From Eubacteriaceae bacterium ES3 (lineage in GTDB: Bacteria; Bacillota; Clostridia; Eubacteriales; Eubacteriaceae): a DNA stretch of 64,000 nt. A model generated the notes under the pieces. It was not told the origin of the DNA. It searched no databases and worked only from the letters and a program-made list of their open reading frames with translations. Each line of letters opens with the position of its first letter. Position 1 is the stretch's first letter. The translations under genes and the position numbers were made by a program. The stretch spans positions 2,908,680-2,972,679 of the forward strand of contig CP130741.1 of NCBI GenBank assembly GCA_030586155.1, written 5' to 3'. This document shows positions 14,495 to 26,615 of the stretch, piece by piece.

Positions 14495-17400
14495 CTAATA
14501 TTTGTCACTGTTAAAATCATTGAAGCTATTCATATCAAAATCATCAAGTTCAATGCTGACATCTTCTGTCGGCTGACTAGGGGCCAGCTTAGCGGCTGGA
14601 GCCTGATAGCTGCTACTGCCACCTTTTTTAAGTTTAAATGCATAAACCCGACTCTTCAACAGCTCTGCCTGGCCTAACAATTCTTCGCTGGCTGCAGCAC
14701 TTTCTTCGGCTGTTGCCGAATTTGTCTGGACTACTTTTGCAACCTGCTCAATCCCGGTATTGATTTCATTAATCTTAGTCGCCTGTGCATTTGATGCATT
14801 AGCTATTTCACCCACCAGGCTGGTCATACTCTCAATCTTCGCAAGTATTCCCTTGAGACTTTCAGCAGTATCTGTGGCAATTGCCGTTCCAGCTTCAACC
14901 TTATTAATTGAACCTTCGATCAGCTCAGTTGTTTCTCTAGCTGCTTCAGCGCTTCGAGCTGCCAATGTTCGCACTTCTTCAGCGACCACGGCAAAGCCTT
15001 TGCCATGCTGGCCAGCCCGAGCTGCTTCCACTGCGGCATTTAGGGCCAGAATATTGGTCTGGAAGGCAATGTCATCAATCACCCGGATAATTTTAGAGAT
15101 ATTGTTGGACGATTCATTAATATCATTCATCGCGCCAACCATTTCATCCATCTGGGAATTACCCGCTTCAGCACTGTTTTTCACATCGCTGGAAAGAGCA
15201 TTGGCCTGATTTGCGTTAGTTGCATTACGGGAAGTATCATTGGCTACTTCATCCATTGAAGCATTAAGTTCCTGAATAGCTGCCGCTTGTTCGGATGCAC
15301 CCTGGGACAGAGCCTGTCCACCATCAGAAATCTGATTGGCACCGGCTTCCACCTGATTGGAGGCATCGCCGATCGTTGAAAGTGTTGCGCTTAATTCAGT
15401 AGTGATGGCATTCAAGGCATCCTTGATAGCGCGGAAGTCGCCCAGATAGTCGGCGGTAATTTCCAGATCGAGATTACCATGGCCGATTTCTGTCAGCGTA
15501 CTGGTTATTTCAGTGACATAGCTTTTCAGGAAGCTGATAGTCTGATTCATATCATCTTTAATCTGAACGTAATCACCATTATAGAAGCCGGACATTTCAG
15601 TGTTCAGGTTCCCCTGTGACAATTCTTTAAGGGTTGCCGAAGCTTCCTTGACCGGTCCTACTACCGCATCCATAATGCCGTTTAAACCGACGACGATTTC
15701 CGAGAACTGTCCCTGATGAGACGATGCATCCGCCCGCGTATCCAGCTGACCTTGAATACCGGCCAGAGCCATCATGGTCGCATCATTGATCAGGTGTTCC
15801 ACTGAATTTTTTACTTCAGACATATTATCTCTAATCTTTTCAAACTGCGTGCTGATTTCAGTTGTATATTCATCGGCTTCAGTCAGGTTCAGATCAAAAT
15901 CAATATTCCCCTGGGCCAGAAGACTTAAATTAGAAGCCAGACGTGAAACCTCAGCAGACGTATAATTGCTGACTCTCATGATTTCTGTCAGATCAGTAAT
16001 TGTTTCCACAAAACCGATATTCTCACCCTTTTTATTTTTCAGATAGGCAGTGGTCTGCTTATTATTACTGCCCTTATAATCAAAGAATGATTCTGACTTA
16101 TTGTGATCCACCAGTTGTCTGATCCCGCAGTTTTCTGTCTGGCAGATATCAGAGCCAGCATTCCAGCAATCCATTCCAATAGCGGACTCACGATCTTTAA
16201 TATCACTGTTGCCAGCCAGAAAAGCTTCAAAAGCACGGTTCATAAAGGTCCATTTCATATTGTTATCCGTAACATTGATTGGGAAAGGAAGTGAATCAAG
16301 GATTCCTTCATACCAGACCATCTGATCGACAACAATATCCAGGGTTTCATTGACTCCCTGTACAATTTCCTTAAAGCCACCAGCAAAGGCCTCAGCATCG
16401 CCTCGGGTTTCCCACTTGCCAGCTTTAGCAGCTTCAGACAATGATGCGGCTTCAGCAATCAGACCACGAATGGTTTCAACTGTAGTTTTTAGTGCCGGAG
16501 TAATCTCATCCTCAGTATCAATAATTTCCAGTTCAGCCGAAACGTCTCCATTTGCAATCTGCTGCATCAGGCCAACAACATTACTCTGCAGATTTCCGGC
16601 CATATGATTAAGGGAAGCGCTCATTTCCCCGACTTCGTCACGGGTAGTGATTTCAACCCGCTTGCTTAAATGACCTAGATCGAGTTCCTTAATCATATCG
16701 TTGGCGGCGATTACCGGTTTGGCGATCATGCGAGAGACAAAAAGGGCTATTGCCGCCCCACCAAGAACGGTTGAAAAGGCAATTAAGATAATCCCTTTTT
16801 TCAGATCATTGATCGGCTGCAGCATAAACTCCTGGGATTCCGATATAACCAGGGTCCAGGTCGTCCCAGGAACTGGGGCAATATGGCCAATTTTAGGTTC
16901 TCCATATTTTTCATAGTAAATGCTTGCAACCTGACTTAAATCCATGTCCTGAAGGACAAATCCCAGGGCCAGGTCGGTTTCATTTTCACTATGAGCGGTC
17001 TCATAAATATTGAGTTTCTGCATGACTAACTCTGCATTTGGGTGGGCCATCAGAACACCATTTGCACTCATAACCAGGGCATACTGATTTTCTCCGTCAC
17101 CAAGAGCACTGACCACATCAGTCATGAAAGTCGGATCACGGCGGGCCACCAGCAGGCCAACAACCTGATTATTATTTTTAATAGGAACAACCTCGAAAAT
17201 TGATGGCTCACCAGTCACCGGATCTTCAACCACATCTGAGATACACAAATTTCCTGCCAGGCCATCTTCAAAGCAAGACTGGCCCGCGGCGTCAAATTCA
17301 CCACCCTCAGCAATGTATTTAGCATGACCATTCATATCCATTATGGCAATATTTTCTAACTCCAACCGCGAAATATCGTCAGCCAGAGCGGCACTTTGAG

Positions 17401-20300: not shown

Positions 20301-21209
20301 TTAACTTATATCCCCAGCCGGATTAACATGAACCATGATATGCTTGACCTTGGGAAAGGACTCTTCAATATTTTTATGGACCCCTTCAGCTATTTCATGG
20401 GCCCGTTGCAGGGTGTAGGTACGTTCCACGCCAATTTCAATATCGACATAGATTTTATTGCCAAACTTTCTGGTTCTTAATAAATCAATACCCAGCACCT
20501 GGTCATTTCTGATGACACAATCATGGATCTGCTGTTCAGTTTCTTCACCACAGGAGTGGTCTACCATCTTATCAACGGCATCCCGAAAAATGTCGTAAGA
20601 AGCTCTGGCAATAAAGACAAAAATAATCAGACTGGCTACCGAATCCATAATCGGAAAGCCCATTCGTGCCCCCATGATTCCAATCAGCGCTCCCACTGAC
20701 GAAAGGGCATCGGAACGGTGGTGCCAGGCATCTGCCATTAGTGCGCTGGAATCAATTTTTCGGGCATTAATCCGAGCATACCAGTACATCGCTTCCTTGG
20801 CAATGATAGAGACCAGTGCTGCCACTAGAGCCATCATTCCAGGCGCTGCCAGATTTTTATAGTTACCTGCCAGGATGTTTTTTAGTGCCTCAAAACCAAT
20901 CCCTAAACCAGTCACAAAAAGAATCCCCGCCAGAATAATAGCAGCCACACATTCCATTCGTTCATGTCCGTAAGGATGTTCTTTGTCCGATTCCTGAGAT
21001 GCCAGTTTGACTCCGATCAGTACCACAAAGGTCGAAAAAACATCTGAAGCAGAATGAATCGCATCACTGATCATGGCGTTCGAGTGGGCCATAATCCCCG
21101 CCATTAATTTGAAAAGCGACAGGATAATATTCCCAATGATTGATACCACTGATACCTGTCTGATAACTTTCTGAAAATCGTCAGACGTTATTTGACTGTT
21201 TTGTTCCAT
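20301..21209 (-). CDS. Cation diffusion facilitator, probably Ni2+/Co2+ exporter
   Basis: 302 residues counted from ATG 21209, which has GGAGG at 21218-21222; the in-frame TTG at 21224 lies on the wrong side of that site. It has six membrane helices followed by a cytoplasmic C-terminal domain (about 210-300). Metal-site residues of the CDF family are visible in helix 2 (SDAIHSASD: D49, H52, D56) and helix 5 (DAWHHRSD: D159, H162, D166). CDF proteins export divalent metals by proton antiport. The leader carries a NiCo riboswitch, so Ni or Co is the likely substrate; both metals are needed in quantity for corrinoids and CO dehydrogenase in acetogens, and toxic in excess. Confidence 0.93.
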   Translation of the reverse strand: MEQNSQITSDDFQKVIRQVSVVSIIGNIILSLFKLMAGIMAHSNAMISDAIHSASDVFSTFVVLIGVKLASQESDKEHPYGHERMECVAAIILAGILFVTGLGIGFEALKNILAGNYKNLAAPGMMALVAALVSIIAKEAMYWYARINARKIDSSALMADAWHHRSDALSSVGALIGIMGARMGFPIMDSVASLIIFVFIARASYDIFRDAVDKMVDHSCGEETEQQIHDCVIRNDQVLGIDLLRTRKFGNKIYVDIEIGVERTYTLQRAHEIAEGVHKNIEESFPKVKHIMVHVNPAGDIS

Positions 21210-21316
21210 TTCTAATTCCTCCAAAGTTAAGATTGCCTTGCAGCAATTTCCTTACAGCTTTTCATGATCAGCTTAGATTTCATCTCTGATCAATTTCTAT
21301 TTCTTTATTTTTCACG

Positions 21317-21355
21317 CAAAAAATCCGCGAATCAGCTGTGTACTGTCCCGCGGAT
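21317..21355 (-). terminator. Riboswitch expression-platform terminator
   Basis: Minus-strand ATCCGCG (21349-21355) pairs with CGCGGAT (21323-21329), followed by TTTTTT. The left arm overlaps the 3' part of the NiCo aptamer (CCGCGGGACAG), so metal-bound aptamer and terminator exclude each other: metal binding should allow read-through. Confidence 0.85.
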
Positions 21356-21425
21356 GAAAATTCCACTGTCACCTTGTGACCCGACCCCATGACATTCCGT
21401 CACGGTCTGCTCAGTTTGTACCTTT
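21340..21425 (-). ncRNA. NiCo (czcD) riboswitch aptamer
   Basis: Read leftward, the RNA contains ACUGAGCAGAC, a hairpin (GUGACGGAAUGUCAU), GGGGUCGGGUCAC...GUGACA, another arm, then GCGGGACAGUAC. It has the order and key segments of the NiCo aptamer (CUGAGCAGAC ... GxCGGG ... GGGACAG) with P1 closed by ACUG/CAGU. It lies between a good promoter and the CDF gene, the class's usual target. Recognition is from remembered consensus, not a covariance search. Confidence 0.88.
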
Positions 21426-25127: not shown

Positions 25128-25155
25128 AAAAAATGCCCTCGTTCAGAAGGGCACT
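25128..25155 (-). terminator. Intrinsic terminator of the Tad1-like gene
   Basis: TGCCCT / AGGGCA hairpin with six A on the left (T run leftward), about 50 bases past the stop at 25202. Confidence 0.75.
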
Positions 25156-25201: not shown

Positions 25202-25573
25202 TTATTTTTTGTGGGTCCCACTGACATCCCGTTTAATCCGGTCTTCAACCCGCCGATTAAGCCACATGATCGCTGTTTCGATATGAACCAGGGCCATGGT
25301 ATTTTCCTGACAGGCAAACTCACCTTCCTGAAAAAGCTTTAAGCGGTCTCTGACAATTTCCAGTAAATCAGAATCAATTACGCCTTCTTCCGAATCGGAC
25401 TCCTGCCGTGCCCCTTTTTGAAATTTTATACGACCCAGTTCGATGCTGGGGTCATCTTTGGGCCGAATAACGTACTCCTGATAGGCATTTCCGAATCCTT
25501 TTCCCTTTTCCGGAACACGGTAAACTTCATTTAAACTCCCCAAATATTGAACCGTTGTTAATTTTTCACTCAT
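25202..25573 (-). CDS. Small protein resembling Tad1/Acb2 cyclic-nucleotide sponges
   Basis: 123 residues, soluble, no signal peptide. The N-terminal half is beta-rich and ends in IKFQKG (49-54). The C-terminal half predicts two helices with ENTMALVHIETAIMWLNRR (90-108) and finishes RDVSGTHKK (115-123). This layout and the ENxxAxxxxExAxxWLxxR...RxVxGTHxK signature are what I recall for the phage Tad1/Acb2 hairpin domain, proteins that sequester Thoeris or CBASS signalling nucleotides. The assignment rests on memory of the family pattern. No phage structural genes are nearby; the neighbours are c-di-GMP enzymes and an MCP relic hit by an IS. A strong GAGGAGG site precedes ATG 25573, and a terminator follows. 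It might bind another cyclic nucleotide or be a domesticated phage gene. Confidence 0.65.
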   Translation of the reverse strand: MSEKLTTVQYLGSLNEVYRVPEKGKGFGNAYQEYVIRPKDDPSIELGRIKFQKGARQESDSEEGVIDSDLLEIVRDRLKLFQEGEFACQENTMALVHIETAIMWLNRRVEDRIKRDVSGTHKK

Positions 25574-25656
25574 TTTTGAGCCTCCTCTTTAACTCTGAAT
25601 CCTAGTTTGATTGGTTTTTTTATACCCAAACTAATTGCACTTATTCATAAAAAACA

Positions 25657-25845: not shown

Positions 25846-26181
25846 ATGCCATCAAAACGCTATGAAATTACAGACGAACAATGGGAACAGATTAAAGCTT
25901 TATTTCCCAAAGCGAAAACTGGTCGACCGCCAAAAGATAATCGGTTAATCTTCAACGCAATTTTATGGATTGCGCGAAGTGGTGCTGCGTGGCGAGATCT
26001 TCCCGAACGTTTTGGTTCGTGGAAAACGGTCTACAGCCGTTTCTGTAAATGGCGTGATGACGAAACACTGGCAAATATTTTTCATGCCTTAAATACCGAT
26101 GCTGACTTTGAAAATCTCAGCATTGATTCAACCATTGTAAAAGCGCATCAGCACAGTGCTGGTGCTAAAAAGGGGCTGTAA
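25846..26181 (+). CDS. IS5-family transposase, first frame (orfA)
   Basis: 111 residues: the helix-turn-helix DUF4096-type N-terminus (YEITDEQWEQIKALFPK, RPPKDNRLIFNAILWIARSGAAWRDLP) and the start of the DDE domain (SIDSTIVKAHQHSAGAKK). It ends at TAA 26179-26181. The second frame begins in -1, and AAAAAGGGG just before the stop would allow a -1 slip to continue KGAVNAEVNQYI. Confidence 0.9.
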   Translation: MPSKRYEITDEQWEQIKALFPKAKTGRPPKDNRLIFNAILWIARSGAAWRDLPERFGSWKTVYSRFCKWRDDETLANIFHALNTDADFENLSIDSTIVKAHQHSAGAKKGL

Positions 26182-26189
26182 ATGCAGAA

Positions 26190-26615
26190 GTGAATCAATA
26201 CATCGGTAAAAGCCGGGGCGGTAACACGACTAAAATTCACGCAGTCGTCGACGCTCTGGGTAATCCGATTCACTTTGAACTTTCAGGCGGCCAGATTAGC
26301 GATAATACCGCTGCAATTGGTCTACTGGCAAACATTGAAATCAAAAATGCCAACATTTTGGGTGATAAAGCTTATGGAACTAAAGAGATCCGGACTTATA
26401 TCACTTCACAGGGTGCAACCTATACAATTCCGCCAAAGTCAAACACCAAAGAACCCTGGGACTGTGACTGGTGGCTTTATAAAGAACGCCATCTGGTTGA
26501 ATGCTTTTTCAATAAAATCAAACATTTTCGTAGAGTTGCGACTCGTTATGACAAGCTGGCATCTTCGTTTTGTAGCTTTGTTTACATTGCTGGCATCTGG
26601 CTTTTGTCAAAATAA
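26190..26615 (+). CDS. IS5-family transposase, second frame (orfB)
   Basis: 141 residues carrying the rest of the DDE catalytic domain: GGNTTKIHAVVDALGNPIHFELSGGQ, ADKAYGT-like GDKAYGTKEIR, and the C-terminal ERHLVECFFNKIKHFRRVATRYDK with the conserved E. It has no independent ribosome site and is expected to be made as an orfA-orfB fusion by -1 frameshifting near 26167-26175. Apparently complete. Confidence 0.9.
   Translation: MNQYIGKSRGGNTTKIHAVVDALGNPIHFELSGGQISDNTAAIGLLANIEIKNANILGDKAYGTKEIRTYITSQGATYTIPPKSNTKEPWDCDWWLYKERHLVECFFNKIKHFRRVATRYDKLASSFCSFVYIAGIWLLSK

Follow-up and report, generated by a model that had tools for sequence, protein, structure and literature searches.

Phages are known to use nucleotide sponges as weapons. 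The locus described here raises the question of why a gene for such a protein should reside in a bacterial chromosome, close to c-di-GMP genes, and of whether it is a sponge domesticated by its host or a relic left by a phage, the two options offered in an earlier note on this DNA. We analysed a stretch of 64,000 nucleotides (the window) from Eubacteriaceae bacterium ES3, together with a set of 61 genomes composed of the window genome and 60 relatives; 19 of these genomes, including that of the window, are Acetobacterium.

The tad1 gene and its expression signals

The open reading frame for a 123-residue protein was confirmed and assigned to the minus strand, which the earlier note did not give. 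The gene, named tad1 here after its homologues (see below), and its accompanying signals are as follows:

25202-25573, minus strand: tad1 coding sequence, 123 aa, from the ORF list; full-length Tad1 homologue
25571-25573, minus strand: ATG start codon of tad1, with the stop codon at 25202-25204
25581-25588, minus strand: ribosome binding site AGAGGAGG, read directly
25621-25647, minus strand: promoter-like box TGAATAAG-N9-TTTGGGTATA, exact in the window
25128-25153, minus strand: intrinsic-terminator-like hairpin followed by TTTTTT, read directly and folded

The gene thus has the ribosome site and the terminator that had been claimed for it, with AGAGGAGG preceding the ATG and a hairpin plus six T after the stop codon. 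A purine-rich site occupies the matching position in the alignment of the ten tad1 orthologues. The hairpin separates tad1 from a GGDEF-EAL gene, which lies downstream on the same strand together with a GGDEF gene, and the first base of the promoter-like box is 74 bases before the ATG. With a ribosome site, a promoter-like box and a terminator-like hairpin of its own, tad1 looks like a stand-alone unit. No RNA family reached its gathering score at tad1 in Rfam.

The promoter-like box is common to eight of the ten tad1 loci, being absent from those of genomes G010 and G015, and is found even in the window genome (G000) and in G006, where the genes flanking tad1 differ from the rest. In 958,526 strand-bases of Acetobacterium DNA there are eight occurrences of the box, all of which start 63-89 bases before a tad1. 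Only the lack of matches elsewhere carries information, since the pattern was built on those very sequences and parts of the DNA were covered by more than one stretch. The box may resemble the promoters of SigB/F/G-family sigma factors, members of which scored above cut-off in 17 of the 19 genomes of the genus. A search for a regulon with a looser version of the box retrieved four matches in this genome and two in the reversed control, and so revealed none.

The product is a Tad1 homologue

Known Tad1 (Thoeris anti-defense 1) proteins include cbTad1 (PDB 7uav, 7uaw, 8smd and 8kbe-8kbh), CmTad1 (8kbb-8kbd) and Tad1 of Bacillus phage SBSphiJ7. In phmmer comparisons with PDB sequences, residues 3-123 of the window protein aligned with cbTad1 (E 1.4e-34), and the CmTad1 chains were also retrieved (E 6.4e-11); likewise, the protein matched PHROG 2428 (E 2.8e-29). 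The Pfam profile Acb2_Tad1_hairpin, proposed earlier as a check, gave only a match below threshold (21 bits for a cut-off of 27, E 3.8e-4), and NCBIfam profiles gave no match. The C-terminal signature quoted in the earlier note is present.

A single-chain AlphaFold2 model built from 26 aligned sequences had a mean pLDDT of 78.4 and a pTM of 0.65, with the five models spanning 53.5 to 78.4 and residues 116-123 below 50. It shows strands in the N-terminal half and a two-helix hairpin in the C-terminal half, in agreement with the layout that had been read from the sequence. All 20 Foldseek matches of the model at E <= 0.001 were Tad1 chains (best E 7e-11; TM to query 0.76-0.79; 52-55% identity), and none was an Acb2 chain. 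Given the N-terminal strands of the model and the fact that each of its 20 best fold matches is a Tad1 chain, sequence and model together identify the protein as Tad1 rather than Acb2 (anti-CBASS 2). Accordingly, the Tad1 half of the original "Tad1/Acb2-like" assignment stands and the Acb2 half falls: likeness to Acb2 is limited to the name of the Pfam hairpin domain, whose match is below cut-off, and Acb2 consists of a short N-terminal helix and two long helices according to a review (PMC12043709), unlike the strands of the window protein. Likeness to Tad1, in turn, comprises full-length sequence similarity, the layout of strands plus two helices and a near-invariant hairpin.

We defined 44 near-invariant Tad1 columns with 29 non-Acetobacterium sequences (28 distinct ones from 39 loci, plus cbTad1); the window protein has the same residue in 39 of them and differs in five. 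The Acetobacterium proteins differ from the phage-side sequences at seven fixed positions, and their C-terminal hairpin is almost unchanged. Residues F82, N92, R57, R109 and R113 of cbTad1, which we take to be ligand contacts, would align with F81, N91, R56, R108 and R112 of the window protein, all of them identical. The conservation of the hairpin makes the sequestering activity of known Tad1 proteins the default expectation for the window protein, as judged from its sequence.

Distribution of tad1

The gene is present in 10 of the 19 Acetobacterium genomes versus none of the 42 other relatives, and the nine other copies share 79-93% identity with the window protein. Two of the nine tad1-negative genomes are less than 90% complete (G004, 87%; G018, 81%). 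Outside the genus, only 5 of 388 genomes in a class sample of 391 contained a match, with 35-52% identity; a weak match in this sample (G185) reached 33 bits over 53 residues. In viral collections we found 32 tad1 loci in IMG/VR, with 41-57% identity and hence distant relatives, and 45 records in INPHARED, all below 60% identity to the window protein; the plasmid collection scanned for tad1 gave no match. Viral collections are samples, so that unsampled Acetobacterium phages could still carry this tad1 clade. In the protein tree, the ten Acetobacterium sequences form one clade (support 1.0, stem 0.69) apart from the 29 other Tad1 sequences. Our searches of open-licence PMC papers brought up no description of Tad1 being retained by a host or occurring in Acetobacterium.

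tad1 occupies chromosomal loci free of recognisable phage genes

Known Tad1 proteins are encoded by phages or prophages (cbTad1 by a prophage), whereas the Acetobacterium clade is chromosomal and has, besides its seven fixed differences, its own promoter-like box. We compared the ORFs neighbouring each tad1 with those of the 32 tad1-bearing viral loci. The ten Acetobacterium loci contain 211 ORFs, ten of which are tad1, and none of the other 201 matched a viral-contig ORF; the window contributed 18 ORFs between positions 15000 and 36000. Of the 11 bacterial tad1 loci from elsewhere that were compared in the same way, four of them taken from the five class matches, nine did have further matches to viral contigs, from 1 to 11 each; the remaining two (L049 and L050) are at contig ends, with about 10 kb on one side. 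Ten proteins within 8.2 kb of tad1 in the window were also compared with PHROGs, and eight of them plus two more distant GGDEF proteins with Pfam, without retrieving any capsid, tail or terminase protein; the sole match to a head-and-packaging PHROG (E 2.9e-5) falls on a Nudix hydrolase. The earlier statement that no prophage surrounds the gene is thus borne out, and extends to the ten loci: a phage or prophage, which is the customary home of tad1 and not a defining molecular trait, encodes it in none of them. A tad1 match alone does not, then, denote a prophage in a genome. The mobile gene nearest to tad1 is an IS4/5-type transposase, with two ORFs (25846-26615, plus strand) that match integration-and-excision PHROG families; it lies upstream of the promoter-like box, which was left intact.

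The survey of orthologue neighbourhoods proposed in the earlier note revealed an amino-acid ABC transporter operon beside tad1 in eight of the ten loci, counting one where a contig end separates the two, and viral-type neighbours in none. In six species, tad1 lies between this divergent operon and a DUF4364-Fer4-DUF512-Der cluster. In G015, tad1 has the Der cluster on one side, separated from it by the gene for a 910-aa ChW-repeat protein, and lies 307 bases from the end of its contig, and the ABC operon starts 231 bases from the end of another; their adjacency is inferred from this terminal position of both. In G010, tad1 is on the ABC side and the DUF4364-Der cluster is elsewhere, without tad1. 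In the window genome and in G006, tad1 occupies other places, without the operon beside it. Searches for the DUF4364 gene retrieved it from 18 of the 19 genomes of the genus (G004 gave no match), and its locus contained no tad1 in eight tad1-negative genomes.

The solute-binding protein of the transporter was found (E <= 1e-60) in nine of the ten tad1-positive genomes and in none of the nine tad1-negative ones (Fisher p 1.2e-4, with genomes counted as independent despite their common ancestry). In G006, tad1 and the transporter are on different contigs, and the window genome lacks the transporter protein. The transporter loci surveyed were L058-L063, L065, L160 and L161. In G010 and G006, the operon adjoins a gene beginning MPELPEVETVRRTLKNFIIG, presumably mutM/fpg; in six others, operon and tad1 are at the Der locus. 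The ABC ATPase of G015 is split in two ORFs (L160, 5581-6303), which may reflect a frameshift or a fault in the assembly.

Selection and history

All ten Acetobacterium copies of tad1 are intact, and their median omega of 0.059 (31 pairs with dS below 2) indicates purifying selection; the corresponding values for four other genes were 0.063 (DUF4364), 0.129 (Fer4), 0.125 (DUF512) and 0.021 (Der). Distances between tad1 genes correlated with marker distances when all ten genomes were included (r 0.82; as high in 47 of 20,000 permutations), weakly without G000 and G006 (r 0.62; 1,122 of 20,000) and not at all among the main seven species (r 0.04; 7,123 of 20,000), where neither the trees nor this coefficient support a strictly vertical descent. 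Since tad1 distances do not follow marker distances in these seven species, exchange within the genus is likely; for some genome pairs, the synonymous divergence of tad1 is below that of the markers. The absences of tad1 are scattered on the marker tree (G005/G011/G018, G014/G016/G017 and G007/G009), which points to several losses or gains. Overall, the residence of tad1 in Acetobacterium looks old.

Potential sources of immune nucleotides

The window genome contains its own CBASS-type genes:

L121, 2000-8922 (G000:C1:2118999-2125921): CBASS-type genes of the window genome

They comprise an operon for a SAVED-metallophosphatase effector, JAB, E1-E2 and a CD-NTase, next to which there is a second CD-NTase with a 4TM effector. 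These CD-NTases are possible sources of Tad1 ligands and, given that the genome has CBASS genes of its own, it is plausible that tad1 tunes self-made immune signals; that a CBASS host keeps a sponge suggests the setting of a threshold. The TIR match of the same genome has an internal stop and adjoins a restriction-modification pair.

In the genus as a whole, co-occurrence of tad1 with CBASS or TIR was not significant. SMODS-type CD-NTases appear in 3 of the 19 genomes, all of them tad1-positive (p 0.21); the Pfam profile ThsB_TIR had no match in the 19 genomes, and TIR_2 was not associated with tad1, with 4 of 10 positive versus 5 of 9 negative genomes (p 0.66). The Cas10 family search mostly retrieved GGDEF proteins, with one clear match (G006:C65, 128 bits) and an ambiguous one in G002 (43 bits). 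Three genomes that are at least 99% complete (G003, G008 and G013) retain tad1 with no SMODS, ThsB_TIR, TIR_2 or clear Cas10. The survey covered these four Pfam families, and may thus miss other nucleotide cyclases.

A chromosomal sponge probably kept by its host

We consider that tad1 of Acetobacterium is best read as a host-kept sponge and not as a relic. The domesticated option of the earlier note finds backing in the survey of the genus, through the single clade in 10 of 19 genomes, the low omega and the 201 neighbours without viral matches. The explanation that we favour, with a probability of about 0.5, is that of an acquired chromosomal Tad1 sponge that acts as a resident buffer against the accidental firing of CBASS/TIR systems. 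Acetobacterium would have gained tad1 (presumably from a phage) when several of its species had not yet separated, and would since have retained it like any other gene of the chromosome, under expression signals of its own. Homology predicts that the protein assembles as a Tad1 hexamer and binds immune nucleotides without cleaving them, with six pockets for gcADPR-type signals and some cyclic dinucleotides, and two trimer interfaces for cyclic trinucleotides. The buffer might hold the free immune nucleotide under the level at which effectors fire, preventing the cell's own or newly arrived CBASS/TIR systems from going off by accident; the hexamer, the ligand and this direction of the benefit are what we infer for the Acetobacterium protein.

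According to the review (PMC12043709), the ligands that known Tad1 proteins sequester are gcADPR and cyclic di- and trinucleotides. In the Panoptes study (PMC12657218), two of four co-expressed Tad1 alleles inhibited colony formation, probably through sequestration of 2'3'-c-di-AMP. A sponge would also weaken the defence of its own host, which calls for a reason, and tad1 is missing from nine of 19 genomes and persists where no immune-nucleotide system was detected; these points count against a buffer. We advance only tentatively, as doubtful, the more specific proposal of a domesticated phage sponge with a promoter of its own, which would act like a rheostat to tune the host's CBASS/TIR signals or newly acquired systems. 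If true, a gene for counter-defence would have been turned into a negative regulator of cyclic-nucleotide immunity that the host itself encodes.

More generally, a sponge that a bacterial genus maintains by purifying selection would demonstrate that nucleotide immunity is also held in check by the bacteria themselves, and Acetobacterium tad1 would offer a natural case, outside pathogens, for how cells avoid self-killing by CBASS/TIR. How viral and host proteins are related has been a subject of discussion for Acb4 sponges (PMC11722364), which were reported to lack structural homology to Tad1; viral Acb4 sponges were there proposed to derive from host domains, whereas in Acetobacterium it is the host that keeps a phage-type sponge.

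Alternative explanations

An unlikely alternative, though the most probable of those considered, is that tad1 travels as anti-defence cargo with a non-phage element. An ABC-operon/tad1 cassette, disseminated through recombination or by an undetected island, would then serve the element or ease DNA uptake rather than tune host signalling. Operon and tad1 have moved jointly between two settings, the solute-binding protein tracks tad1 across genomes, and the patchy distribution, the tree conflict inside the main clade and the low synonymous divergence of some pairs would all fit such a cassette. Nevertheless, neither the ORF lists around tad1 nor the PHROG and Pfam scans of the window revealed a recognisable integrase, relaxase or conjugation gene, the plasmid collection had no match, omega remains low over a long divergence, and two genomes (G000 and G006) carry tad1 without the operon beside it.

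We consider it less likely still that the protein has a housekeeping role in buffering or sensing an endogenous dinucleotide (c-di-GMP or c-di-AMP), which is a broad form of the idea in the earlier note. The six c-di-GMP genes mentioned there do exist, as six GGDEF domains in the 64-kb window versus 1.2 expected from the 64 matches in the genome, that is, a local cluster of c-di-GMP genes; additionally, three near-complete species keep tad1 although no source of immune nucleotides was detected in them. A GGDEF gene adjoins tad1 in 2 of the 10 orthologous loci (the window and G006), but this has a probability of about 0.11 by chance, taking the 5.8% per locus of this genome, and eight loci have the ABC operon instead. 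Since this adjacency is compatible with chance, and binding of cGG and cAA by Tad1 is described as weak in the review (PMC12043709), a link between tad1 and c-di-GMP genes is not supported.

It is improbable that the protein was repurposed and is no longer an immune sponge, for instance to assist or regulate the amino-acid ABC transporter encoded next to it: tad1 co-occurs with the transporter, even unlinked in G006, and has its seven fixed positions, but the window genome has tad1 without the transporter and the C-terminal hairpin is almost unchanged. Finally, a phage relic left by recombination is very improbable, for although the Tad1 family is mostly viral elsewhere, the ten intact copies of a distinct clade, with low omega, no phage neighbours and a setting constant across species, argue against it.

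The Tad1 proteins of PDB 7uav and of phages OLIVR5 and OLIVR6 carry the label "ABC transporter ATPase", for which their sequence offers no explanation; our guess is that the name may have been passed on from a gene that adjoins a transporter, as tad1 does in Acetobacterium. Elsewhere in the window, there is a NiCo riboswitch (Rfam RF02683, 67 bits; 21341-21424, minus strand) just upstream of a cation efflux gene (20301-21224).
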